A stretch of 64,000 nucleotides of DNA from Frigoribacterium sp. Leaf8 (GTDB taxonomy: Bacteria; Actinomycetota; Actinomycetes; Actinomycetales; Microbacteriaceae), in the NCBI RefSeq assembly GCF_001421165.1, contig NZ_LMKB01000006.1, positions 233,936 to 297,935 of the forward strand, given 5' to 3'. Below are positions 8,205 to 48,391 of this stretch, in pieces. Numbering within the stretch: the first letter of the stretch is position 1; each line of letters opens with the position of its first letter. Below the pieces are notes generated by a model that searched no databases, was not told where the DNA came from, and worked only from the letters and a program-made list of their open reading frames with translations. The translations under genes were made by a program, and so were the position numbers.

Positions 8205-8246
8205 CACGACATGCCGCTCACCTCTCGACGTGAGCGGCATGTCGTG
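8205..8246. repeat. 17-bp perfect inverted repeat between treY and treZ
   Basis: Arms CACGACATGCCGCTCAC (8205-8221) and GTGAGCGGCATGTCGTG (8230-8246) pair perfectly over 17 bp around an 8-base loop. It lies 55 bp after the treY stop and 46 bp before the treZ start. It could be a partial terminator, an RNA-stability element or a dispersed repeat unit. Its base composition is more AT-rich than the surroundings. Confidence 0.6.
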
Positions 8247-8291
8247 CCTTCTCGACCCCCTCCCCCGCCCCTTCCGAACCCGAGGAGACCG

Positions 8292-10064
8292 ATGAGCGTC
8301 TACGACGTCTGGGCCCCGAAAGCGACCACCGTCCACCTGCACCTCGACGGCGAGCTGCTGCCGCTGTCCGCCGAGCCCGACACCGGCTGGTGGCGCACCC
8401 CCGCCGACCTCGACCGGGGCCCGGGTCACCGCTACGGCTTCGTGCTCGACGGCGGCGACTCCCCCGAGGGCGAGACGCCGCTGCCCGACCCCCGCTCGCG
8501 TCGCCAGCCCGACGGCGTGCACGGCCTGAGCGAGACCTACGACCCGGGCGCCTTCGCGTGGACCGACGACGCGTGGACCGGCCGCCAGCTGGCGGGTTCG
8601 GTCGTCTACGAGCTGCACGTCGGCACCTTCACGCCCGGGGGCACGCTCGACTCGGCGATCGAGAAGCTGCCCCACCTGGTCGACCTCGGCGTCGACCTGG
8701 TCGAACTGCTGCCGGTGAACGGCGTCAACGGCCGCTGGAACTGGGGCTACGACGGCGTGGACTGGTTCACGGTGACCGACAACTACGGCGGTCCCGAGGC
8801 GTACCAGCGCTTCGTGGACGCCGCGCACGCGGCGGGTCTCGGCGTCGTGCAGGACGTCGTGTACAACCACCTCGGCCCGTCGGGCAACTACCTGCCGCTG
8901 TTCGGGCCGTACCTGTCGAGCAAGCACGCGAACACCTGGGGCGACAACGTCAACCTCGACGACGCCGGCGCCCACGAGGTGCGCGAGTTCATCCTCGACA
9001 ACACGGCGATGTGGCTCGACGACTACCACGTCGACGGCCTGCGCCTCGACGCCGTGCACGCCCTCAAGGACGACAGCGAGGTCCACCTGCTGCAGGAGCT
9101 CGCCGAGCGGACCGCCGCGCTCAGCAGCCACCTGCGCCGGCCGCTCTCGCTGATCGCCGAGAGCGACCTGAACGACCCGCGCCTCGTCACGCCGCGCGAC
9201 GGCGGCGGCTTCGGCCCCGACCACCGCCAGGGCTACGGCCTCGACGCGCAGTGGAGCGACGACTTCCACCACGCCGTGCACGTCGCGCTCACCGGCGAGA
9301 CGACCGGCTACTACGCCGACTTCGAGCCGCTCGGCGCCCTGGCCAAGGTGCTGACCAAGGGCTTCTTCCACGACGGCACCTGGTCGTCGTTCCGCGAGGC
9401 GACGCACGGGTACCCGGTCGACACCGAGCACATGCCGACCTGGCGCCTGGTCGTGGCCAACCAGAACCACGACCAGATCGGCAACCGGGCGATCGGCGAC
9501 CGCCTGGCCGCGACGCTCGACGACGGGCAGCTGATCATCGCCGCGGCGCTGACCCTGGCCGGTCCGTACACGCCGATGCTTTTCATGGGCGAGGAGTGGG
9601 GCGCCTCGACCCCGTGGCAGTTCTTCACCTCGCACCCCGAGCACGACCTCGGCGAGGCGACGGCGAAGGGCCGCATCGAGGAGTTCGCGAAGATGGGCTG
9701 GGACGAGTCGTCCGTGCCCGACCCGCAGGAGCCCTCGACGTTCGAGGACAGCAAGCTCGACTGGTCCGAGCTCGAGACCGGCCGCCACGCGGTGCTGCTC
9801 GACGCGTACCGCCGTCTGGGGGCGCTGCGCCGCAGCGAGCCCGCCCTGACCGACCCCCGCTTCGGCGAGACGGGCGTCGAGTACGACGGCGACGCCCGCT
9901 GGCTCGTGCTGACGCGCGGTGACCTGAAGATCGCGATCAACCTCGCCGACCAGGAGGCGCGGGTCGCGGTGAGCGCCGAGACCGTCCTGTTCGCCAGCGA
10001 CGCCTCGATCGCCGCGGGGTCGAGCCTGCTGCTCCCGGCGCACTCGGTCGCGATCGTCCGCTGA
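8292..10064 (+). CDS. treZ: Malto-oligosyltrehalose trehalohydrolase TreZ
   Basis: TreZ releases free trehalose from maltooligosyltrehalose made by TreY. The 590-residue protein starts [11 protein letters not shown] with the N-terminal E-set domain (about 1-95), followed by the GH13 barrel with [50 protein letters not shown] (nucleophile Asp) and [11 protein letters not shown] (acid/base Glu); [10 protein letters not shown] supplies the His-Asp pair. I chose the ATG at 8292 because GAGGAG precedes it and the homologous N-terminus begins here. An upstream ATG at 8211 lies inside the inverted repeat and would add 27 Pro/Arg-rich residues. It completes a TreX-TreY-TreZ route from storage glucan to trehalose. 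Confidence 0.94.
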
Positions 10065-10109
10065 CGCGGGCACGGCCGACGCGGGCCCGACCGGGGCCAG
10101 GACAGATGA

Positions 10110-10142
10110 CGCGCGCCCGGGGCTGACCACCCCGGGCGCGCG
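10110..10142. terminator. Bidirectional terminator between treZ and the glycan locus
   Basis: A perfect 13-bp GC stem (10110-10122 with 10130-10142) around a 7-base loop separates the convergent treZ and polyprenol-phosphomannose synthase genes. This is the strongest hairpin in the gap. Confidence 0.6.
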
Positions 10143-10157
10143 CGTGCCGCCTCCCTG

Positions 10158-10964
10158 CTAGCGCGTCGACACGCCGCCGCGCACGGGCCCGACCCGGTGC
10201 GAGGTCGCGCGGACGCTCGGCAGGCGACGGTGTCGCACGACCAACTCGACGACGGCGCGGGACCGTCGACGCAGACCCCACAAGGTCACCTTGGTCAGCG
10301 ACTCCCGGACGATCGAGCCGCTCATCTTCGAGGCGCCGTGGATGCGCTCGGTGAACGTGATCGGAGTCTCGACGACCCGCAGGCCCGCCTGCAGCGCGCG
10401 CCAGAGCAGGTCGACCTGGAAGCAGTACCCCCGCGACTCGACCCGGTCGAGGTCGATCCGGCGCAGCGCGGACGAGCGGAACACCCGGAACCCACCGGTC
10501 GTGTCGGCCACGCGGATGCCCAGGGCTCCCCGCGTGTACCAGCTGCCGCCACGGCTGAGCAGCTCCCGGCGGAGGGGCCAGTTCTCGACGGCGCCGCCGG
10601 GCACCCACCGCGAGCCGAGCACGAGGTCGTTCTCGCGGAGCAGCTCGAGCATGCCGGGCAGGTACTCGGGGTGGTGCGAGCCGTCGGCGTCCATCTCGAC
10701 GAGGGCGTCGTAGCCTCGCTCCAGCCCCCAGGCGAAGCCGGCGAGGTAGGCGGCGCCGAGGCCGGCCTTCTCGGTGCGGTGCATCACGTGCACGCGGGGA
10801 TCGCGGTCGGCGTAGGCGTCGGCCAGCTCTCCGGTGCCGTCGGGCGAGCCGTCGTCGACGACGAGCACGTCGACCGCGGCACCGGAGGCGAGGGTGCGCC
10901 CCACGATCCAGTCGAGGTTCTCGCGCTCGTTGAAGGTCGGGATGATGACGAGGGCGTCGTTCAT
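10158..10964 (-). CDS. Polyprenol monophosphomannose synthase (GT2, Ppm1/DPM1-like)
   Basis: A 268-residue soluble GT2 enzyme of the dolichyl-phosphate-mannose synthase type, expected to transfer mannose from GDP-mannose to polyprenyl phosphate on the inner membrane face. It opens [18 protein letters not shown], has [12 protein letters not shown], the metal-binding DAD in [14 protein letters not shown], and GSRWVPGG followed by SGGSWYTR-like sequence as in actinobacterial Ppm1. It lacks the C-terminal membrane domain of fused forms. It is the last gene of the minus-strand glycan run. Its product would feed the GT39 protein mannosyltransferase-like enzyme encoded upstream. The ATG has GGAAAGGA 6 bases before it. 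The leader carries five tandem heptamers. Confidence 0.88.
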
Positions 10965-10997
10965 GGTGGGGTCCTTTCCCGTCGGGTGGGAGTCGGA

Positions 10998-11032
10998 GGT
11001 GTCGGGTGTCGGGTGTCGGGTGTCGGGTGTCG
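10998..11032. repeat. Five perfect tandem copies of GGTGTCG
   Basis: Five uninterrupted copies of the heptamer GGTGTCG fill 35 of the 85 bases between the sortase stop and the polyprenol-phosphomannose synthase start. Copy-number change would alter leader length without touching a reading frame. Confidence 0.8.
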
Positions 11033-11049
11033 GAGGCGTCGGTCGGGCG

Positions 11050-11730
11050 TCAGGCCACGAGGTCGGCGAACACGATGAGGTTGTCGACGTAGTGCCCGGT
11101 CGACCGGTCGAAGGTGCCGTCGCAGGTGATCAGCCGGAGGCCGGGGGTCGGACTGGCCCCGTAGACGTCGCTCGTCGGGAACGTCGCCTTCGGGGTGCGC
11201 TCGCTGCCCGTGACGCGGAAGGTCTCGACCGAGCCGGTCGACAGCGTCACCTGCACCTCGTCGCCGGGCACGAGCTTCGCGAGGTCGACGAACACCGCGG
11301 GGGCGTCACCCGAGTCGACGTGTCCGGCGATCACGGCCGGTCCGACCGCGCCGGGCACGACGCCGTCCTGGTACCACCCGGCCGACAGCCACTCCTTCGG
11401 CGGGTCGAGCTCGCCCTGGGCGCCGAGGCCGAGGTCTTCGAGGCCGGAGTCGACCCCGATCGAGGGGATCTGCAGGCGGACCGGCGTCGCGTCGGCCGGG
11501 GGCGAGGTGTACGACGGGGCCGCCGGGTCCTGGAAGGCACCGGCCGCTCCGCTCGCCGCATCCGGCGTCGCATTTGTGGTGGCGGGGGCCGTGGCGACGG
11601 AGCCGGGTGCGTCCGCGTCGGGCCGGGCGGCGACGGCGGCCACCGTCACGCCACCGGCCACGAGGACGACGGCGGCGACCGCGGCGAGGACCGCCGCGCG
11701 GTGACCGGCGACGAACGTCGAGAGGCTCAT
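11050..11730 (-). CDS. Class E/F-type sortase (transpeptidase)
   Basis: A 226-residue membrane-anchored sortase that would attach secreted proteins to the cell wall. A hydrophobic segment (about residues 12-35) is followed by an Ala/Thr/Pro-rich stalk (36-80) and the catalytic domain. Visible active-site residues are H137 in [10 protein letters not shown]203 in LITCDGTFD and R209 in FDRSTG. In the related YRDN form the Arg lies near position 215, where this protein has Val (HYVDN), so the catalytic Arg is probably R209. Its ATG overlaps the stop of the GH8 gene (ATGA), which indicates coupling. No classical LPXTG substrate is encoded nearby. The best candidate substrate is the secreted DUF4397 protein two genes upstream. 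Confidence 0.85.
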
Positions 11731-12896
11731 CCGTTCACCACCAGGGGGGTGCAGGCGCCGAGGCTCGAACCCTCGAGTTGCAGGGCGGCGAGCGCCGCCC
11801 AGGCGCTGCCGTAGTAGGTCGGCGTCGACTGTGACAGGGAGTCGGCGGTCCGCAGGTCGGCCGTCGCCCGGTCGTGCTGGCCGTCGCTGGCCTCGGCGGC
11901 GGCACGGGCGGCGTAGGCGAGGGGGCTCTGGTCCGAACCGACCGACTGCCCGCCGAGGTCGAGCTGCATGGGCAGCTCGTCGTAGCGCTGCAGCACGGAG
12001 GCCATCGACGCCGAGAGCGCCACGTCCTCGGGCTGGCACGACTCGGCGTAGCGCAGGGCGAGCCGACCGGCGTCGTAGCTGTACTGCACGGTGCCCGACG
12101 ACCCGTCGGCGCTCGGCAGCGGGACCGTCGTGCCGTCCTGCTGCACCTGGGCCCAGTCGCTCGGGAGGGCCGTCGAGGCGAGGATGTTCGTGGTCACGGC
12201 TCGCGAGCCGGTCTCGAGCTCGGCCCATCGAGGGTCGCCGCTGGCCTCGCCGAGCTGCGCGAAGGTCGCGGGCGACGCGTACGAGGGGTTGTACGACCAC
12301 GGGCCGGAGCCCATCGCCCACGGTCCGGGCAGCAGGATGCGGCCGACGTCGGTCGAGACCGTCATCTTGTCGAGCACGTCGGTGCCGAGGTCGACGCCCT
12401 CGGTCGTGAGGTCGGAGCGGTCGAAGGTCGAGCCGGCGAGCACGAGGGCCCGCGCCGCGTCGACGTCGGCGTCGCTGGCCGGCATGTCGTCGACGACCTC
12501 GCCGTCCTTCCACTGCCAGGCCAGCAGGCCGTCCGGGCGCACCAGGTTGCTCTTCGTCCAGTCCCAGATCGCATCGAAACGGTCCTCGTCGCCCACTCCG
12601 ACGGCGACGAGCATCCCGTAGGCCTGCCCTTCGCTGACGGTGTCGTCGCCCTGGTCGCGACGCACGACGCGGCCGTCGTCGTCGACGTACCCGTCGAGGA
12701 AGTCCTTGCCGATCTCGGCGGCCGTCCGTGGCTGAGGAGTGGCCGTACCCGTCCCGGGGGTGCCGGTCGCGTCCGCGCCTGCCTGGTCCGTCGACGGGCC
12801 GCCAGCCCCTCCGACGACGAGGGAGGCGATGCCGGCGGTGATGGCGAGGGCCACCACGACGGCCGCTGCGAGCAGCGCCTTCGTCTTCTTCGTCAT
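11727..12896 (-). CDS. Secreted or membrane-anchored glycoside hydrolase family 8
   Basis: A 389-residue GH8-type enzyme, the family of BcsZ endoglucanases that trim beta-1,4-glucan during cellulose-type export. The N-terminus (about 5-30) is a single hydrophobic segment that is a signal anchor or signal peptide, followed by a Thr/Gly-rich linker. The GH8 signature region VSEGQAYGMLVAV holds the proposed general acid Glu, and ASDADVDAARALVLAG holds the catalytic-base Asp. AWQWKDG, NPSYASP and TVQYSYDAGRLALRYA also fit the family barrel. A GGAGA site precedes the ATG. It sits between the DUF4397 and sortase genes, downstream of a BcsA-like GT2, so a role in processing the same glycan is likely. 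The true substrate is not shown. Confidence 0.85.
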   Translation of the reverse strand: MTKKTKALLAAAVVVALAITAGIASLVVGGAGGPSTDQAGADATGTPGTGTATPQPRTAAEIGKDFLDGYVDDDGRVVRRDQGDDTVSEGQAYGMLVAVGVGDEDRFDAIWDWTKSNLVRPDGLLAWQWKDGEVVDDMPASDADVDAARALVLAGSTFDRSDLTTEGVDLGTDVLDKMTVSTDVGRILLPGPWAMGSGPWSYNPSYASPATFAQLGEASGDPRWAELETGSRAVTTNILASTALPSDWAQVQQDGTTVPLPSADGSSGTVQYSYDAGRLALRYAESCQPEDVALSASMASVLQRYDELPMQLDLGGQSVGSDQSPLAYAARAAAEASDGQHDRATADLRTADSLSQSTPTYYGSAWAALAALQLEGSSLGACTPLVVNG

Positions 12897-12967
12897 GTCG
12901 TTCTCTTCTCCTGCTCGGTGCTGCGGTCGGTCGACCCGGTCGACGCTCTGGACGCGATCGGTGCCGG

Positions 12968-13003
12968 GGAGGCGCGGTGCGACGGGTCGCTCACCGCGCC
13001 TCC
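12968..13003. repeat. Facing pair of the dispersed GGAGGCGCGG motif (11-bp inverted repeat)
   Basis: GGAGGCGCGGT (12968-12978) faces ACCGCGCCTCC (12993-13003) across 14 bases. The dyad lies between the DUF4397 stop and the GH8 start in the glycan locus. It could act as an attenuator or RNA-processing hairpin and contains two copies of a decamer found elsewhere in the window. Confidence 0.7.
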
Positions 13004-13028
13004 TCGTCCTGTCGGGTGGTGCCGGGCG

Positions 13029-13895
13029 TCAGGCCCCGAACCAGCCGAGCACGGTGGCCCAGAGGCCCTTGGTCTCGCTCTTCTGCGGGTGCTCGGCGAG
13101 GTAGCCGCCACCGGTCTGGACGCCACCGACGGGCGCCTGCGCCGTGGCCGCGCTGTCGACGACCGGGACGACGGTCAGACCGCCGGTCGAGTTGTCGAGC
13201 ACGAACAGCGTGTTGATGCTGCCCGCCGCGAGGTCGACGTCGCTCGTGCCGGTCACCTTCTTGCCGGTCAGGTCGAGGGTCCAGGGGCCGGCCGCGACCT
13301 GCGCGTAGCCGCTGGCGCTGCCGAAGGGCGCGTCCTCGGCGATGGTGGTGCCCGTGCTCGTCGCGACCGTCACGGTCTTGCTGACGTTCGCGGCCTGCAC
13401 GAGGCGGACCTTGGCCTGGCCGTCGGCCGGGGCCGTCAGGTCGTCCGTGAAGACCTGGGTCTTCAGGTCGTCGTTCGGGCCGTAGGCGACGGCGGTGATC
13501 GGCTGGCCGCTGTCGACCGTGATGTTCGACGTGATGACCGGCTTGGCACTGGTGGGTGCGTCCGCGGCCGTCATCGAGACCACGTAGGTGCCCGCGGCCA
13601 GCGCCTGGTAGGGGCTGACCTGGCCGTAGGTGACGTCGTCGAGGTCCATGACGACCTGCCCGCCCTTGAGCGAGGTCAGCGTGACGTCGACGGCCTTCGT
13701 GTCGGGCGAGAGGTGGCCGACGCGGACCCAGCCGTCCCCGTCGGCGGCGTGCGCGGGCGACGTGCCCACGAGGGCGCCGGCGAGGGCGACCCCGGTGGCG
13801 GCGGTGAGGGCGAGCACCGTCGCGAGACGGCGGCGTCGGGACGGGACGCCGGTGACGGCGGCGGGTGCGGTGGTGGTGCGTGAGAGGGAAGCCAC
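13029..13895 (-). CDS. Secreted DUF4397 domain protein
   Basis: A 288-residue secreted protein with two DUF4397-type beta-sandwich segments. The signal peptide comprises SRRRRLA, a hydrophobic stretch (about 22-40) and cleavage near AHAADG. The mature part begins WVRVGHLSPDTKAVDV, typical of DUF4397, with a repeat-like second half (KVRLVQAANVSKTVTVAT). The C-terminus has PVGGVQTGGG, then a short tail ending in LWATVLGWFGA. This is not LPXTG, but is the only plausible sorting-like signal near the sortase. I chose the GTG at 13895, with GGAAAGGA 9 bases upstream. It lies between the GT39 and GH8 genes. Role unknown; possibly a surface protein that is glycosylated or wall-linked. Confidence 0.82.
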   Translation of the reverse strand: MASLSRTTTAPAAVTGVPSRRRRLATVLALTAATGVALAGALVGTSPAHAADGDGWVRVGHLSPDTKAVDVTLTSLKGGQVVMDLDDVTYGQVSPYQALAAGTYVVSMTAADAPTSAKPVITSNITVDSGQPITAVAYGPNDDLKTQVFTDDLTAPADGQAKVRLVQAANVSKTVTVATSTGTTIAEDAPFGSASGYAQVAAGPWTLDLTGKKVTGTSDVDLAAGSINTLFVLDNSTGGLTVVPVVDSAATAQAPVGGVQTGGGYLAEHPQKSETKGLWATVLGWFGA

Positions 13896-13920
13896 GATGG
13901 CTGGTCCTTTCCGGTCGGGT

Positions 13921-13943
13921 GTCCCACCCGGGACGGGTGGGAC
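13921..13943 (-). terminator. Intra-operon hairpin upstream of the DUF4397 gene
   Basis: GTCCCACCC and GGGTGGGAC form a perfect 9-bp stem around a 5-base loop, just upstream of the DUF4397 ribosome site. Without a U-tract it may be a partial terminator or an RNA-processing site, setting a different level for the secreted protein than for the GT39 gene. Confidence 0.4.
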
Positions 13944-13993
13944 GCGGTGAGGAGGTGCCGGCGCCCGCGGGAGGACGGACGCCGGCGTGGCGA

Positions 13994-16000
13994 TCAGTTC
14001 GCGAGGACGCCCGTCGGTGCGACGGCCGAGAAGGTGACGCGCAGTCCGTCGCCCGAGGGGACGACCGACTCGGGGACGTAGACGCTGCCCAGGCCCTCGA
14101 GCGTGGTCCGCACCTCGTCGACCGACTGACCACCCTGCGGGGTGACGTCGAACTGCCGGAACAGGGCGTCCTGTTCGCCCGGCAGGGCCGCGGGGTCGGC
14201 GACCGAGATCGGCCCGAGGGCGGCGAGCTGACCGAGCACGATGATCGCGCGCGGGTCGAGGCGGCCGTCCGAGAGCGCCGTCGACAGGGTCGACGAGATC
14301 TGCAGGTTCGGGTTCTGGGCGAGTTCGGCACCGGCCTGCGAACGGGCCGACGCGGCGTCGTCCGCCTCGGTCTGCGCCTGCGCGGCCCCCTGGCTGTCGA
14401 TCTGCCGGACGTTGACCTGCTGGTCGCCGTCGCCGAACGAGGCGATCACGGTCGAGTTCGCGAGGGCCTCGCGGATCTCGGGCGAGGTCGGCCCCGAGGT
14501 GCGGACCGACTCGGTCTCGAAGAGGTAGTCCGAGTCGCGCCAGCCGTTCGGCGACTGCGCCTGGACGGCACCGTCGGTGTCGATCTTGTAGAACCAGATC
14601 ACGTTGTCGCGGGCGAAGCCGGCCTTGACGAGGTCGACCCAGACCGCGTCGTCGACCAGCAGGCGGCTGTCCTTCGGCACGTTCGTCTCGACCCAGCTCT
14701 CGGCGTTGCGCATGGGCGCGTCGAGGTCGCTGTCCAGGAAGCCGCGCAACTGCACGGCCCAGAGCGGGACGATCGCCACGACGGCCGCGAGGGTCAGGGC
14801 GAGCCAGGCCACCGAACCGGTGCGGGACGCCGCGGTCGAGAGCGCGCCGGCCCGACGGGCACGGAAAGCCCGGACCGCGTGGTCGGTGACGGCCGCGACG
14901 AGCAGCGCCGCGAACGGCAGCAGCATGATCACGTAGGGCACCGGCAGGTAGCCGCCGGGACGGAACATGAAGGCGATCAGGAACACCATCATCACGCCGA
15001 GCGGGCGCAGCCTCTTGACGAAGACCGCGACGACCGAGGCCAGCGTGCCGAGCACGATGAGCACCTGGTCGAGCTGCCACCACTGCGACACGGTCGCGAA
15101 GAAGAGGCTGCCGGTGTCGAACACCGAGCCGCTCGCCTCACGGGTCGCGAGCTGGAACTGGATGCCCTCGAGCAGGCTCACCCTGCCGGCACCGGGCAGC
15201 AGCTCGCCCTTCACCGCGGCGAGCGCGACGTAGCCGAGGCCGACGAGCACGAGCAGGCTGCCCGCGATCGACAACGTGTACCGACGGGTCGACTTGTCGG
15301 CCCCGCGCCACATGATCCAGGCCAGGAAGGGCAGCGCCAGCAGGTACGTCTCCTTCGAGAGCACCGCGATGCCGAACGAGAGGGACGCCGCCGCGAAGCC
15401 GGCGAGCTGGTAGCGCTTGCTCAGGGCGAAGACGAACGCGGCCAGCAGCCACGGGGTGGCGACGTTGTCGAGGTAGACCGTGCGGTGGAACTGCAGGGCC
15501 AGCGGCGACACGGCGAACACGAGACCGGCCACGGCGGCCGCGGGACGGCTGAGGCCGAGCTTGCGGCCGAGCAGCCAGACGAGGGCCACCGAGACGACCG
15601 TGAAGAACAGCATCGCCTCGCGAGCGGCGAGCACGGCGACGTCGTACCGCGAGAAGGCGCCGGTCAGGGCCGTGTAGGCCGAGATCTGCAGCCAACCGAC
15701 CGGCGGGTGGTCGTACCAGTAGGTGTAGTGGGTGATCTCGCCTAGGTTCTGGATGGCCCAGGCCTGGGCGGCGTAGGTGCCCTCGTCGTCGATGCGTTGC
15801 GGCGAGCCGTCCATGTTGAAGGCCATGACGACCGCGGCGATGGCGAGGACGGGCAGCAGCCAGGCGAGGCTCGCGCCGTGTCGACGCAACCACGACGCGG
15901 GCCGGGCGCCCCTCGGGTCCTTCGTGGGGACCACGGGGGTTCCCGGTCCGTTCGACACCGTGGTGCCGGCCGCGCGGGGGCGGTTCAGCGTGCTGGTCAT
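13994..16000 (-). CDS. GT39/ArnT-like integral membrane glycosyltransferase
   Basis: A 668-residue polytopic membrane protein of the GT-C fold (dolichyl-phosphate-mannose-protein mannosyltransferase/ArnT group), using a polyprenyl-phosphate sugar donor outside the membrane. After a 40-residue cytoplasmic head come about ten or more hydrophobic segments. The first loop contains the acidic motif IDDEGTYAAQAWAI (D71, D72, E73) typical of GT39, followed by THYTYWYDHPPVGWLQ. LQFHRTVYLDN is a second conserved loop. The last 150 residues form a soluble domain with IIVLGQLAALGP. The donor could be the polyprenol-phosphomannose made at the end of the same operon (inference). Its ATG overlaps the stop of the GT2 gene by ATGA. 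Confidence 0.85.
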   Translation of the reverse strand: MTSTLNRPRAAGTTVSNGPGTPVVPTKDPRGARPASWLRRHGASLAWLLPVLAIAAVVMAFNMDGSPQRIDDEGTYAAQAWAIQNLGEITHYTYWYDHPPVGWLQISAYTALTGAFSRYDVAVLAAREAMLFFTVVSVALVWLLGRKLGLSRPAAAVAGLVFAVSPLALQFHRTVYLDNVATPWLLAAFVFALSKRYQLAGFAAASLSFGIAVLSKETYLLALPFLAWIMWRGADKSTRRYTLSIAGSLLVLVGLGYVALAAVKGELLPGAGRVSLLEGIQFQLATREASGSVFDTGSLFFATVSQWWQLDQVLIVLGTLASVVAVFVKRLRPLGVMMVFLIAFMFRPGGYLPVPYVIMLLPFAALLVAAVTDHAVRAFRARRAGALSTAASRTGSVAWLALTLAAVVAIVPLWAVQLRGFLDSDLDAPMRNAESWVETNVPKDSRLLVDDAVWVDLVKAGFARDNVIWFYKIDTDGAVQAQSPNGWRDSDYLFETESVRTSGPTSPEIREALANSTVIASFGDGDQQVNVRQIDSQGAAQAQTEADDAASARSQAGAELAQNPNLQISSTLSTALSDGRLDPRAIIVLGQLAALGPISVADPAALPGEQDALFRQFDVTPQGGQSVDEVRTTLEGLGSVYVPESVVPSGDGLRVTFSAVAPTGVLAN

Positions 16001-17487
16001 CGGTCACCTCCGGTCATGGCCAGGGCGGGCTCCGTCGAGGAGGCGCGGGGCGCCTCCTGCGGTTCGGTCGCGACCTCGTCGCGGTGCGCGCCGGTGTGCT
16101 CGGTCTTCTCCCAGGCGTTGAGGCCGCGCAGCTGGCGGAAGACCGCCCGGACCGCGGCGAGCGCGAGGAAGATCTGGTACGGCAGCAGTCCCCAGACGAG
16201 GCGGAAGTAGTCCCGGGCCCGGACCTTCTGGCCGTAGACCCGCCCGAACTCGCGCAGGCCGGTGAACTCGACGGCCAACAGCACGAGCGTCGGCGCCAGG
16301 GGCACGAACGACACGAGTGCGATGGCGGTCGGCACCTTCGTGGTCAGGATCAGGACGATCGAGACGGGGATGAGCAGACCGGTGGCGGCCTGGATGAACG
16401 GCATGGTCAACAGGTAGCGGGCCATGAGGCGCTGGCGCAGGCGGGGCAGCTTCTTCCACTCGCCCTTGCCGTAGACCTGCATGAAGCCCTGGTTCCAGCG
16501 GGTGCGCTGCTTGAGCAGCGAGACGAAGGTGCCGGGGGTCTCCTCGCGGGTGACGACCTCGGGGCTGTAGGCCACGACGACCTTGGCCCCGGCGCTCGAG
16601 AGGCGGACGCCGAGCTCGCAGTCCTCGGCGAGGCACTCGGCGTCCCAGCCCTCGGACCAGTCGAGCCAGTCCTTGCGCACGAAGACGGTGTTGCCGCCGA
16701 GCGGGATGAACTTCTCCTTGGCGTGGAAGTGCAGGCGCGACCGGAACCAGAAGTAGTACTCGAGCACGTTCCGCAGGCTCCACCAGCTGCTCTGGAAGTT
16801 CATCAGCTGGACGCCGCCCTGCACCACGTCGGCATCGGTCTCGGTGAACCGGGAGTCGACGAGCGTCAGGAGGCGGGGGTGCACCTCGTCCTCGGCGTCG
16901 AACACGCCGACGATCTCGCCGCGCGACGACTGGAGGGCCAGGTTCAGCGCCTTGGGCTTGTTCTTCGGCACGCTCGAGTCGACCACCACGCGGATCAGCT
17001 CGGGGTGACGGGCGGCCGCCTCACGGGCGACCCGCTCGGTGCCGGGGTCGTCGTGGCCGACGATCGCGATGATCTCGAAGTCGGGGTGGTCCTGCTGGGC
17101 GAGGCGGTCGAGGGTCTGGCCCATGACCTCCTCCTCGTGCCGGCCGGGCACGAGCAGGGTGAACGAGTGGGCGGCGTCGAGGGGGTTCTCGCTGAACTGG
17201 CTGTCGTCGAGGTTGTCCTTCGACCGCCAGGCGTGCAGCATCCACCAGAGGGTCGACACGGCGACCGCGGTCAGCAGGATCGTCACGACGATCAGCGACG
17301 AGTAGCCGATCCACTCGAGGGGCGACCAGTCGGGTAGCTGGAAGCCGATCATCGAGTCGGCGGCACCGGTCGAGCCACGGTTCGGGACGAACTGCGACGG
17401 GTCGGCGGGGGCTTGCGGGGTGAGCAACGGGGCGGGTTCGCCCGCTGCGAGATGTGATGTCGGGATCTGGGTCGGGTCAGTCGACAC
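15997..17487 (-). CDS. Membrane GT2 glycosyltransferase, BcsA/hyaluronan-synthase-like
   Basis: A 496-residue processive-type GT2 enzyme. A membrane span (about 60-85) follows a FVPNRG motif (33-38). The GT-A domain has GHDDPG, KNKPKALN (near 175-182), the DxD-type DAED (197-200), VQGG (222-225), the base motif AEDCELG (287-293) and QRTRW (327-331). Three or four C-terminal hydrophobic segments follow. There is no PilZ domain, so cyclic-di-GMP control is not evident. It should polymerise a nucleotide sugar and extrude the chain. The neighbouring GH8 supports a beta-linked glucan-type product, but the sugar cannot be read from the sequence. GTG start with GGAGAG upstream. It is closely related to the degenerate GT2 encoded two genes upstream. 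Confidence 0.88.
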   Translation of the reverse strand: MSTDPTQIPTSHLAAGEPAPLLTPQAPADPSQFVPNRGSTGAADSMIGFQLPDWSPLEWIGYSSLIVVTILLTAVAVSTLWWMLHAWRSKDNLDDSQFSENPLDAAHSFTLLVPGRHEEEVMGQTLDRLAQQDHPDFEIIAIVGHDDPGTERVAREAAARHPELIRVVVDSSVPKNKPKALNLALQSSRGEIVGVFDAEDEVHPRLLTLVDSRFTETDADVVQGGVQLMNFQSSWWSLRNVLEYYFWFRSRLHFHAKEKFIPLGGNTVFVRKDWLDWSEGWDAECLAEDCELGVRLSSAGAKVVVAYSPEVVTREETPGTFVSLLKQRTRWNQGFMQVYGKGEWKKLPRLRQRLMARYLLTMPFIQAATGLLIPVSIVLILTTKVPTAIALVSFVPLAPTLVLLAVEFTGLREFGRVYGQKVRARDYFRLVWGLLPYQIFLALAAVRAVFRQLRGLNAWEKTEHTGAHRDEVATEPQEAPRASSTEPALAMTGGDR

Positions 17488-17502
17488 AGGATCACTCTCC
17501 AG

Positions 17503-18114
17503 TCAGGGGGTCGGGTGCAGGTGGGCCTGCGAGGTGGTCTGCGGGATGGGGTCGTCGGTCGACCGGGGGTCGATGACGGTGGCGAGCGCGGCCGACGGGT
17601 CGGGGGTGTCGGCCGTGGTGGTGACCGCGGGCGAGCCGCGGAAGACGAGGTGGCGGTAGGCCAGGTAGCGGAATGCGGTCCCGAGGACGAGACCGATCCC
17701 GTTGGCCGCGACGTTGTCGGCGAGCTGGCTCGTGAAGCCCAGCAGGTAGTGCGAGACGAAGAGGCAGGCCGAGGCGATCAACAGGCCGCCCACGTTGACG
17801 AGGCCGAAGGTGACGGCCTCACGGACGACGGCCTGGTTGCGTCCTTCCCGGAAGGTCAGGTACCGGTTGCCGAGCCAGGCGACGGCCGTCGCGACGATCA
17901 CCGAGACGACCTTGGCCCCGATGGGCTTGTCGTCGAGCAGGGTGGCGCGCAGCAGGTTGTACACGCCGACGTCGACGACGAAGGCGATCCCGCCCACGGC
18001 GCCGAACGTCGCGAGCTCCTTCACCCGTGCGACGAGGCGCAGGGGTGGCGTCGGGTTCGTCGTGGCGGCACGGTCGGGACGTGCCCCCTGGACGGGGGAC
18101 TCTGGTTCGGGCAT
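17503..18114 (-). CDS. GtrA family membrane protein
   Basis: A 203-residue protein with the four-helix GtrA core (about residues 30-165), containing FGAVGGIAFVVDVGVYNLLR, AVAWLGNRYLTFR and FRYLAYRHLVFR, the usual GtrA end blocks. GtrA proteins are thought to help move lipid-linked sugars across the membrane or to assist glycosyltransferases. The last 35 residues are a polar, disordered tail. It lies 15 bases upstream of the active GT2 gene and is probably part of the same transcript. The ATG at 18114 has no strong ribosome site. A later start inside the polar head is possible but would keep the core. Confidence 0.85.
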   Translation of the reverse strand: MPEPESPVQGARPDRAATTNPTPPLRLVARVKELATFGAVGGIAFVVDVGVYNLLRATLLDDKPIGAKVVSVIVATAVAWLGNRYLTFREGRNQAVVREAVTFGLVNVGGLLIASACLFVSHYLLGFTSQLADNVAANGIGLVLGTAFRYLAYRHLVFRGSPAVTTTADTPDPSAALATVIDPRSTDDPIPQTTSQAHLHPTP

Positions 18115-18199
18115 GACACCGGTTCGGGGGACGTCGCCGGATCGGTTTGGTCGGGGTACGCAGATCTGGGCCAACTGCCAGACAGGCGACATCTGCCGG

Positions 18200-19639
18200 T
18201 CATCCGACGGCGGATTCGTCGAGCCCGACGGGTCGCCCGGCGAGGACCGGGGCGCTCGTCGAGGGGCCGACGACCCGCGGGCGGACGATCGCGAGTTCCG
18301 CCGCGACCGCCGTGACGACCGCGCAGAGGGTGACCAGCCGGTCCGGCACCGAACCGACGACGACCAGGAGGCGCTCCCGGCTCGTCGCGCGCCGCCCCTG
18401 TTCCGCAGCCGCCTCCGTCGTGGCCCCGACGTCGAGGAGCTGCGAGAGCATCCAGGGCAGCACCGGGAGCGCCGCGAGCGCGACGACGAGGACGGGTGCA
18501 CCGACCAGGACCGTCGAGGCGACCGTCACGGCCATCACGATCGTCACGGCGGCGTCGACCAGCGGCTCGGTGAGGACGCCGAGGGCACGGCGCCGCGCGC
18601 CCGGCCGGAGCCGACGCCAGTCGCCCTGCCCCAGAACCTGCAGGCAGCCGCGGACCCACGTCGCCCGGGCACGGGCCAGGTCGCGGAGCCCACCCGGCGA
18701 CCGCTCGACCGTGGTCGCCTCGGCCGAGGTCGCGATGACGATCCGGGCACCGGCCGCCGTCATGCGCACGCCGAGGGCCAGGCCCGCCTCGACGCGGGAG
18801 GCGTCCCAGCCCCCCGCCCAGGCGAGCCACGCGTGACGCACGAAGAGCGTGCTGTCCGACAGCGGCACGAAGCCGGCGCGACCGTGGGAGCGGACCACCG
18901 ACCGGGACCACCACCAGCGGTCGACGGTCGACCGGGGCGTCCACCAGGGGGTCGCCGCGAGCGCCGGGCGGCTGGCGTGCTGGACCGCGTCGGCGTCCGT
19001 GCGGGTCAGGACCGAGTCGACCAGGGCGAAGAGGCGGGGGTGCGGCCGGTCGCCCGCGGAGAAGACGCCGACGATGCTGTCACCGTCGGGGGCGAGTTCG
19101 TCCGCGAGGGAGGAGGCGGCCACGGGCGTCCGCCCGGCGAGCGGGCCGGTCCTGACGATCCGGACCCGCTCCGGGTGACGCCGGACGGCGGAGGCGGCGA
19201 CGTCGAGGGTCAGGGCGTCGTCCACGTCGACGGCCACGAGGACGCGCACGTCGGGGTGCCGCTGCCGGGCCAGCAGGTCGAGCGTCACGGCCAGGCCGGC
19301 CGGCCCGTGCGCGGGCACCAGGGCCGTGAACGCGTGCGCCGGGGGCAGCACCGGGCCGTCGAGGTCGCCGTGGCCGAGCTCCTCCAGCTCGCGGACGAGG
19401 TAGAGCCTGCGCACGATGCGACCGATGGTGACGGTCAGGACCAGCGCGACGAGCACGGCCAGCAGCGCCGTGCCGGCCCACTGCAGGCTCGACCAGTCGG
19501 CCCACGGCAGGGCGGCCGAGACGTCCTCCCCCGGGACGGAGGGCAGGCCGCCCCGGTTCGGCACGAACGGTGTCGGCGTCGCGGGCAGCGTCGGCGTCAG
19601 GACGGGGCCGGGCGCCGCGAAGGCGGGTGCGGAGGTCAC
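18200..19639 (-). CDS. Degenerate GT2 glycosyltransferase-like membrane protein (predicted inactive)
   Basis: This 479-residue protein is a clear paralogue of the GT2 enzyme two genes downstream. Both share a PFVPNRG/FVPNRG head, one membrane span (about 53-75), the VGVF-HPRL block, TDAD-VQ, the WAGGWDA/WSEGWDA turn and the QVLGQGDWRRL/QVYGKGEWKKL helix. Yet every catalytic motif is lost. DAED is SAGD (194-197), AEDCELG is VEAGLALG (283-290), QRTRW is RARATW (323-328), and the KNKPKALN donor loop is GRTPVAAS. The reading frame is intact and C-terminal membrane segments remain, so it looks selected as a non-catalytic partner rather than a decaying pseudogene. GTG start with weak ribosome site. 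It is the first gene of the glycan run. Confidence 0.8.
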   Translation of the reverse strand: MTSAPAFAAPGPVLTPTLPATPTPFVPNRGGLPSVPGEDVSAALPWADWSSLQWAGTALLAVLVALVLTVTIGRIVRRLYLVRELEELGHGDLDGPVLPPAHAFTALVPAHGPAGLAVTLDLLARQRHPDVRVLVAVDVDDALTLDVAASAVRRHPERVRIVRTGPLAGRTPVAASSLADELAPDGDSIVGVFSAGDRPHPRLFALVDSVLTRTDADAVQHASRPALAATPWWTPRSTVDRWWWSRSVVRSHGRAGFVPLSDSTLFVRHAWLAWAGGWDASRVEAGLALGVRMTAAGARIVIATSAEATTVERSPGGLRDLARARATWVRGCLQVLGQGDWRRLRPGARRRALGVLTEPLVDAAVTIVMAVTVASTVLVGAPVLVVALAALPVLPWMLSQLLDVGATTEAAAEQGRRATSRERLLVVVGSVPDRLVTLCAVVTAVAAELAIVRPRVVGPSTSAPVLAGRPVGLDESAVG

Positions 19640-19675
19640 GGTGGTGATCCAGTCGGGTCGGGGCAGTGGGAGCCT

Positions 19676-19710
19676 CGGACGTCCGGTCCCGCAGGGGACC
19701 GCGACGTCCG
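19676..19710 (-). promoter_or_regulatory. Leader hairpin upstream of the glycan locus
   Basis: A 15-bp stem with a single-base bulge (19676-19690 pairing with 19695-19710) lies 37 bases upstream of the degenerate-GT2 GTG start. In the predicted transcript it would sit in the 5' leader and could act as an attenuator or protein-binding RNA. Confidence 0.45.
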
Positions 19711-19713
19711 ACG

Positions 19714-19743
19714 GATCGTGTCCCCCAGCCGGGGGACATGATC
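19714..19743. promoter_or_regulatory. Near-perfect 13-bp dyad around TGTCCCCC-AGCC-GGGGGACA
   Basis: TGTCCCCC and GGGGGACA form a perfect 8-bp inverted repeat around AGCC. GATC on each side extends it, with a single G-T position between. It lies between the divergent glycan locus and aldo/keto reductase gene and could be an operator or a second leader hairpin. Confidence 0.45.
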
Positions 19744-19755
19744 TGATGAATCGTC

Positions 19756-19761
19756 ACTGTA
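19756..19761 (-). promoter_or_regulatory. Possible -10 box TACAGT for the glycan locus
   Basis: TACAGT on the minus strand would start a transcript near 19749, giving a leader of about 110 bases that includes both dyads. No convincing -35 box is seen. Confidence 0.3.
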
Positions 19762-19810
19762 CGCCTCCTCAGTCGACCGCACGGGCCTTCGCCGCGTCCC
19801 CTGCGACGCG

Positions 19811-19816
19811 TAGCGT
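19811..19816 (+). promoter_or_regulatory. -10 box TAGCGT, leaderless aldo/keto reductase
   Basis: TAGCGT, six bases (GGGGTC), then the ATG. This geometry predicts a transcript starting at the start codon. Confidence 0.5.
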
Positions 19817-19822
19817 GGGGTC

Positions 19823-20827
19823 ATGGAATTCAGACACCTCGGCGACAGCGGACTCAAGATCTCGGAGATCACCTACGGCAACTGGCTGACGCACGCGTCC
19901 CAGGTCGAGAACGACGTGGCGACGCAGTGCGTCCGTGCGGCCCTCGACGCCGGCATCTCGACCTTCGACACCGCCGACGCCTACGCGAACACCGCGGCCG
20001 AGCAGGTCCTCGGCGACGCCCTCAAGGGTGAGCGTCGCGAGGGACTCGAGATCTTCACGAAGGTCTACTGGCCCACCGGCCCTCGCGGACACAACGACGT
20101 CGGCCTCAGCCGCAAGCACGTGCTCGAGTCGATCGACGGGTCGCTCCGCCGCCTCGGCACGGACTACGTCGACCTCTACCAGGCCCACCGCTACGACCAC
20201 GAGACCCCGCTCGAAGAGACCATGCAGGCGTTCGCCGACGTGGTCCGCGCCGGCAAGGCGCTCTACATCGGCGTCAGCGAGTGGACCGCCGAGCAGATCC
20301 GGGCGGGCCACGAGCTCGCCGTGAAGCACGGCGTGCAGCTGATCTCGAACCAGCCCCAGTACTCGATGCTCTGGCGCGTCATCGAGTCCGACGTCGTGCC
20401 GGCGAGCAAGCAGCACGGCCTCGGCCAGATCGTCTGGTCGCCCGTCGCCCAGGGCGTCCTGACCGGCAAGTACAAGCCCGGAGCCGAGCTGCCCGCGGGC
20501 AGCCGCGCGACGGACGACAAGGGAGGCGCGGACACGATCAAGCGCTTCCTCACCGACGAGGTGCTCACCGGCGTCGCGAAGCTCGAGCCGATCGCCGCCG
20601 ACCTCGGCCTCTCGATGGCCCAGCTGGCCATCGCATGGGTGCTGCAGAACGACAACGTCGCCTCCGCGATCATCGGGGCCTCGCGCCCCGAGCAGGTGGC
20701 CGACAACGTCAAGGCGGCGGGCGTCACGGTGCCCGCCGACGTCATGGCCCGCATCGACGAGGCGCTCGGCGACCTCGCCGAGAAGGACCCCGGCAAGACG
20801 GTCTCCCCCGAGCGCCGCCCGGCCTGA
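19823..20827 (+). CDS. Aldo/keto reductase family oxidoreductase
   Basis: A 334-residue NADPH-dependent aldo/keto reductase of the potassium-channel-beta-like (AKR6/YghZ) type. The barrel starts MEFRHLGDSGLKISEITYG, and the catalytic tetrad is visible as Asp and Tyr in FDTADAYANT, Lys in EIFTKVYWP and His in YQAHRYD. The cofactor-binding end block is SAIIGASRPEQVADNVKA. Length is normal. It is cytoplasmic and probably monocistronic, with a leaderless start and a good hairpin 8 bases after the stop. The physiological carbonyl substrate is unknown. The gene is divergent from the glycan locus across a 183-bp gap that holds two dyads. Confidence 0.9.
   Translation: MEFRHLGDSGLKISEITYGNWLTHASQVENDVATQCVRAALDAGISTFDTADAYANTAAEQVLGDALKGERREGLEIFTKVYWPTGPRGHNDVGLSRKHVLESIDGSLRRLGTDYVDLYQAHRYDHETPLEETMQAFADVVRAGKALYIGVSEWTAEQIRAGHELAVKHGVQLISNQPQYSMLWRVIESDVVPASKQHGLGQIVWSPVAQGVLTGKYKPGAELPAGSRATDDKGGADTIKRFLTDEVLTGVAKLEPIAADLGLSMAQLAIAWVLQNDNVASAIIGASRPEQVADNVKAAGVTVPADVMARIDEALGDLAEKDPGKTVSPERRPA

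Positions 20828-44892: not shown

Positions 44893-48391
<3,499 letters not shown>

Follow-up and report, generated by a model that had tools for sequence, protein, structure and literature searches.

The window, i.e., the whole stretch of 64,000 nucleotides of Frigoribacterium sp. Leaf8 that was analysed (from a genome of 3.33 Mb in 12 contigs), carries on its minus strand a run of eight genes that starts with two GT2 glycosyltransferase genes separated by a GtrA gene and continues with genes for a GT-C protein, a DUF4397 protein, a GH8 hydrolase, a class F sortase and a small GT2 (Table 1). Throughout, "active" refers to the presence of the GT2 motif residues in the sequence, and the first gene of the run, whose product lacks them, is referred to as the predicted inactive copy. 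The order GT2, GT-C, DUF4397, GH8 and class F sortase found within 8211-20827 is common to several Microbacteriaceae genera, often also together with the small GT2, GtrA and the reductase. As for GtrA, no match was found at the locus in 3 of the 16 Frigoribacterium genomes (L069, L074, L082), in which the other locus genes are present.

Table 1. Genes and other features at the locus, with coordinates in the window.
Feature	Position	Strand	Basis or remark
Aldo/keto reductase (AKR), flanking the locus	19823-20827	+	
Palindrome TGTCCCCC-N4-GGGGGACA, upstream of the inactive copy	19719..19738	.	Sole exact match in the genome
Inactive GT2 paralogue (predicted pseudoenzyme), 479 aa, GTG start	18200..19639	-	ORF list, PF13641, alignment
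N-terminal tail motif PVLTP...PNRG (codons 12-30 of the inactive copy), common to the active family	19550..19606	-	Alignment, pattern count
Leader between the inactive copy and GtrA	18115..18199	-	Resembles the intergenic region before GtrA/GT2 in non-carriers
GtrA-family membrane protein, 203 aa from the ATG at 18114, between both GT2 genes	17503..18114	-	PF04138
Active-type GT2, 496 aa, with DAED, AED and QRTRW	15997..17487	-	PF13641; 16/16 Frigoribacterium genomes
GT-C (PMT-like) membrane protein, 668 aa	13994..16000	-	PF02366 19.8 bits, under the curated cut-off of 22.7
DUF4397 protein, start uncertain	13029..about 13967	-	Domain match
GH8 glycoside hydrolase, BcsZ-like	11727..12896	-	NCBIfam BcsZ 127 bits, under the equivalog cut-off of 299
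Class F sortase	11050..11736	-	NF033748 173.7 bits, cut-off 166
Small GT2, closest models being polyprenyl-phosphate-sugar synthases	10158..10964	-	NF058614 53 bits, far under the cut-off of 370
TreZ, flanking the locus on the other side	8211-10064	+	

Motif loss in a full-length GT2 paralogue

The two GT2 proteins align from end to end with about 35% identity, and the pairwise alignment shows FVPNRG, VGVF..HPRL, GWDA and Q.xG.G.W to be shared by both. PF13641 is matched with 54 bits by the inactive copy and with 139.7 bits by the active-type GT2 (cut-off 27), and in the former the match covers residues 104-331 and positions 3-230 of the 230 of the profile, i.e., a full-length GT2 domain. This bears out the first-pass annotation, which had described a full-length GT2 paralogue with an intact frame. 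No NCBIfam model reached E 0.001 for the inactive copy.

In BcsA-type enzymes, the motif residues of the GT2 domain serve in donor and metal binding, as the base and in holding the acceptor. In the inactive copy, DAED is replaced by SAGD, AED by EAG (aligned columns) and QRTRW by ARATW, and the KNKPKALN loop is missing, leaving no DxD-type motif, no (T/A)ED base motif and no QxxRW. This state is shared by its orthologues. The metal-binding D197 and E199 of DAED, E288 and D289 of AED, Q327 of QxxRW and K177/N182 of the KNKPKALN loop are gone in 7/7 orthologues, and R330 of QxxRW in 6/7, being retained by that of G007 alone, which reads RTRW. D147, D200, R328 and W331 are retained in all seven. 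The earlier claim that every catalytic motif was lost therefore holds motif by motif, and fails residue by residue. Orthologues with DxD, ED or QxxRW, which would have pointed to recent decay, were looked for and none was found among the seven. As the loss is common to all of them, it is old and fixed, and recent decay in this one genome is ruled out.

By comparison, the motifs are intact in the active-type GT2 of 16/16 Frigoribacterium genomes, and 34 of the 36 rows of the main alignment that are not inactive copies retain every motif residue, the exceptions being G210, from another genus, and the frame-broken G327. The motifs were also found in further relatives (28/28 in one set and 16/17 in another, several rows of which duplicate genes of the main alignment or the window's own gene), the one exception being a fragment that ends before QxxRW. 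In G327 (L101:6468-7966), an active-type GT2 is split over two frames, which reflects either a broken gene or an assembly error.

The hydropathy profile of the inactive copy peaks at 58-76, 376-394 and 424-457, with a borderline peak at 285-303, placing membrane segments both before and after the GT domain. Structure models of both GT2 proteins, weak ones built from 10 sequences each (mean pLDDT 54 and 49), contain nearly the same helices. With Foldseek, the weak model of the inactive copy matched Pyrobaculum ManGT (PcManGT), Chlorella virus HAS and E. coli BcsA (E < 0.001) with TM-scores of 0.41-0.44 on the query, a result that supports the fold class only; sequence searches against solved structures gave zero matches. 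Hence, PF13641, hydrophobic segments on either side of it and the matches of the weak model are features that the inactive copy has in common with BcsA, hyaluronan synthase and PgaC/IcaA, from which it differs by the absence of the DxD-type, E-D and QxxRW residues.

Distribution, origin and constraint

The active GT2 was found in 16/16 Frigoribacterium genomes and the inactive copy in 7/16, two of the seven carriers being of one species. In all seven (the window and six other stretches), the gene sits beside the active GT2 locus genes at one insertion site, between the reductase and GtrA and upstream of GtrA-GT2. The same gene is present in records of Frigoribacterium sp. PhB24, VKM Ac-2836, Leaf186 and MEB024. 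A tree built from six locus proteins in concatenation separated the 7 carriers from the 9 non-carriers with a support of 100; the carriers' GT2s formed one clade with the same support when other genera were included, and the gene tree of the inactive copy shows the same pairs as the carrier tree (G327 was left out of all trees, G160b, G086, G150 and G348 also out of one, and G210, G305b and G323 out of another). No inactive copy was found in the 388 genomes sampled from the other genera of this family. Orthologue-level matches came from 2 of the 398 family genomes surveyed (10 of them Frigoribacterium), both Frigoribacterium, in a survey whose first pass scored at most four candidates per genome, so that misses are possible; all remaining matches with E < 1e-30 were inspected and proved to be active-type GT2s, apart from the broken G327 and G210. 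No remnant was found in the 9 non-carrier genomes, where the space is too short for the gene (133-240 bases between AKR and GtrA in six, and 265-285 between AKR and GT2 in the three without GtrA). A plasmid search with the inactive copy and a viral contig search with the active GT2 both gave zero matches.

The branch of the inactive copy is longer than 5 changes per column. Joining it to the Frigoribacterium GT2s was disfavored by the AU test with p 0.018, and 0.031 without G210, and joining it to the carriers' GT2s alone with p 0.042; p was 0.24 once six rows of one neighbouring genus were added. Its grouping with G210 may result from long-branch attraction. The tail of the inactive copy (MTSDPT..LAAPGPVLTP in two orthologues) resembles that of the Frigoribacterium GT2 (MSTDPT..LAAGEPAPLLTP), which favors a local duplication. 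Besides, the leader preceding GtrA in non-carriers resembles the one found in carriers after the stop codon of the inactive copy, indicating that the latter was inserted upstream of the leader of the operon. As this leader lies between the inactive copy and GtrA-GT2, the former is probably transcribed separately and, judging from the layout of the sequence, probably has its own promoter; a scan for consensus promoters and terminators found none. The palindrome upstream of the gene has three more sites in the genome with one mismatch. A one-mismatch second copy lies at 44913-44932 of the window.

The frame is intact in 7/7 orthologues. Frameshifts in many strains, named by the first-pass annotation as a possible refutation, were looked for and none was seen in the seven carriers, a sample (two of one species) in which the strain level is barely represented. 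According to the NG86 estimates, dN/dS of the inactive copy ranges from 0.247 to 0.406 (median 0.31) and is below 1 in 21/21 pairs, the closest included, vs 0-0.116 (median 0.07) for the active GT2. GtrA, with 0.191-0.482 (median 0.27), is much like the inactive copy, and the medians of the remaining locus genes lie between 0.04 and 0.17. Thus, the expectation that dN/dS would stay low was borne out in absolute terms (0.25-0.41), with values roughly fourfold those of the active copy. With YN00, which gave values for 11 of the 21 pairs, the median was 0.083. To allow for the GC bias of third positions, the change at codon positions 1 and 2 was set against that expected from fourfold sites. It amounted to 18-35% of the neutral expectation in 9/9 pairs tested of 21 possible, as illustrated by the closest pair, with 18 changes vs 61 expected. 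Variable columns make up 30%, 21% and 60% at codon positions 1, 2 and 3, respectively. Third positions vary about twice as much in the inactive copy as in the active GT2 (0.597 vs 0.272 of columns), and hence its silent sites also evolve faster. In neutral simulations (three comparisons, 1000 runs each), 18-42% of the runs remained without any stop codon, so that open frames alone are weak proof. Taken with the values at positions 1 and 2, the inactive copy is a constrained and retained protein-coding gene, on which constraint is weaker than on the active GT2. This is in line with the earlier description of a retained pseudoenzyme, which the motif loss and open frames in 7/7 orthologues and the dN/dS below 1 in every pair support.

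Constraint is unevenly distributed along the protein. Among the 7 copies, 61% of residues are invariant overall. This proportion reaches 90% in the first strand and helix (102-130), 84% in the former DxD region (189-226), 88% at 401-432 and 67% in the QxxRW and interface-helix region (301-345), vs 48% in the first membrane segment (46-76), 53% in the membrane part at 346-400, and 19% both in the lost donor loop (163-188) and in the C-terminal end with the last membrane segment (433-479). The GT core is thus best conserved and the membrane parts fall under the protein's average. As a consequence, the claim that frame and membrane parts were intact stands for the frame and for the membrane segments as judged by hydropathy, and has to be tempered for the membrane sequence. 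A block peculiar to the inactive copies, RWWWxRSVVRSHGRAGFVPLSD, is conserved at 241-262, and RSVVRSHGRAGF and PLSDSTLFVR (one residue variable) form a clade-conserved set that is likewise their own. The N-terminal tail is instead common to the family. Its pattern, P-[LIVM]-[LIVMP]-x-P plus PNR, which was composed after the sequences were seen, is complete in 48 of 61 distinct proteins, among them 7/7 inactive copies and 41/53 other GT2 relatives; six proteins, among them G210, have one part and seven more distant proteins neither, and shuffled tails carry both patterns in 0.03% of draws.

A targeted loss at catalytic positions was considered and found unsupported. In 44 active relatives (10 from the set of 28, the rest being the active rows of the main alignment other than G210 and G327), 126 positions are at least 95% conserved, of which 49 are kept by all 7 inactive copies, i.e., 4/15 motif positions vs 45/111 others (Fisher p 0.40). 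The loss is broad and extends beyond the active site. This argues against an otherwise finely preserved enzyme deprived of nothing but its catalysis, and the lack of preference for catalytic positions is equally compatible with a broadly relaxed constraint and with a new role.

Possible roles of the inactive copy

With middling confidence, we consider the inactive copy to be a GT2 paralogue kept by selection and serving the glycan machinery of the locus as a non-catalytic partner or regulator. The protein would be made, would fold as a membrane GT2 without transferase activity, and would serve the same machinery as its neighbors, namely GT2, GtrA, GT-C, GH8 and the class F sortase. Its place, the shared tail and the kept core make a subunit or regulator the most likely role; such a subunit would stabilise, position or tune the active GT2 or a neighbouring membrane component, with the kept N-terminal tail and the kept core of the GT domain as putative contact surfaces. 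In favor of a partner are the motif loss in 7/7 orthologues, purifying selection, uneven conservation, the tail motif, the location, the restriction to one clade and the fold matches. The leader in between, the broad loss, membrane parts and a C-terminal end conserved below average, and the faster third positions speak against it, as does the lack of the copy in 9/16 genomes of the genus. In a crude test, private changes of the carriers' active GT2 were found at 8 positions vs 8 and 10 in two control clades, which gives no sign of mutual adaptation. Hence, the proposed partnership with the active synthase, which we infer from the adjacency in 7/7 carriers, is weakened by the separate upstream region, the absence of extra private substitutions and the non-carriers.

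Two other readings are each unlikely. In one of them, the inactive copy would bind a nucleotide, sugar or lipid like a sensor or lectin and report on, or buffer, the substrate without transfer and without a stable complex with the active GT2. The retention of D147 (the first Asp), D200, R328 and W331, together with the block at 241-262, is consistent with such binding, which is difficult to reconcile with the loss of the metal ligands and with a donor loop that is among the least conserved parts of the protein. In the other, to which we give a comparably small share of credence, a redundant duplicate decays slowly under weak residual selection, e.g., against misfolding in the membrane, and has no important role. 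A fourfold higher dN/dS than in the active copy would agree with this, as would the lack of preferential loss at catalytic sites, and the absence of stop codons is weak evidence to the contrary given the stop-free neutral simulations. Yet positions 1 and 2 fall 65-82% short of the expected change, in the closest pairs as well, the gene is kept in 7/7 genomes of the clade without a frameshift, invariant blocks are strong, and the adjacent GtrA has a similar dN/dS.

A role as negative regulator, overlapping with that of a partner, is improbable; the inactive copy would lower the output as a competitor of the active GT2 for GtrA, lipid or a dimer slot. The tail and membrane segments shared with the active GT2 could support such competition and the distinct upstream region with its conserved palindrome would allow separate control, but the data are silent on the sign of any effect. 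A new enzyme with another catalytic arrangement, performing a different transfer or a hydrolysis, is very improbable, since the donor loop is free to vary and we know of no GT2 chemistry without a DxD-type ligand and base, even if the clade-conserved set RSVVRSHGRAGF and PLSDSTLFVR could be read in its favor.

For the preferred role as non-catalytic partner or regulator, a parallel comes from animals, in which inactive partners of glycan polymerases are reported: CHPF and CHPF2 are reported to be inactive paralogues that are essential for complex formation with the chondroitin synthases CHSY1/CHSY3 (PMC12748766). Like them, the Frigoribacterium gene codes, as far as its sequence tells, for an activity-less paralogue beside an active polymerase, and the two are encoded next to each other in 7/7 carriers. 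In contrast, CHPF and CHPF2 are human Golgi proteins with other domains, for which both the complex and the need for it are reported (PMC12748766), while the partnership proposed here is deduced. In bacteria, a glucan of Lactobacillus johnsonii requires GtrA- and GtrB-like genes (PMC7117936). As in GtrA-GtrB-GtrX systems, one locus combines a GtrA-family protein, a small GT2 and a further membrane transferase (PMC7117936); the Frigoribacterium locus differs by the addition of a QxxRW GT2, GH8, a class F sortase and DUF4397, and no inactive GT2 appears in the sections of PMC7117936 drawn on. Among the papers found, the term "pseudoglycosyltransferase" mostly designates ValL/VldE-type enzymes, a matter distinct from an inactive GT2 copy. 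In the open-licence literature, no paper was found on any bacterium that retains an inactive membrane GT2 next to an active one, nor one describing DUF4397 with a sortase or the gene order of this locus. If the inactive copy is a subunit, the occurrence of the locus with and without it in one genus constitutes a natural experiment on what a non-catalytic partner contributes to a membrane synthase.

Motif loss at the same locus in another genus

The genome of G210 (97% complete) offers a second case of lost motifs. Its locus GT2, the sole match to the active GT2 in that genome, reads FGQSS, ESTDGGIG and RDRLVF in place of the motifs, Asp289 being kept, and has PNR without the full tail pattern. 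Its GT-C protein is devoid of the DDEGTY Asp and of the YTYWYDHPP segment, both conserved in nearly all relatives inspected and presumably catalytic, as in GT-C enzymes. Both frames are open (L095:5554-9503). GH8 was not found in the G210 genome, and the DUF4397 protein (47%) and the sortase (59%) are retained. This single genome may reflect either a retained function or a decaying locus. A quite unlikely, broader proposal is that the GT2s of this locus have a second, non-catalytic job, e.g., as a membrane platform serving both the surface glycan and, beside the sortase, the DUF4397 protein. Such a job would outlive catalysis; it would have been assigned to a separate, dead duplicate in one clade of Frigoribacterium and, in G210, would have stayed after GT2 and GT-C lost key residues while the frames, DUF4397 and the sortase remained. 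In the window, the DUF4397 protein (13029-13967) ends in APVGGVQTGGG and a short tail, and that of G210 is similar; judging from its sequence, this C-terminal end may serve the class F sortase as a sorting signal.
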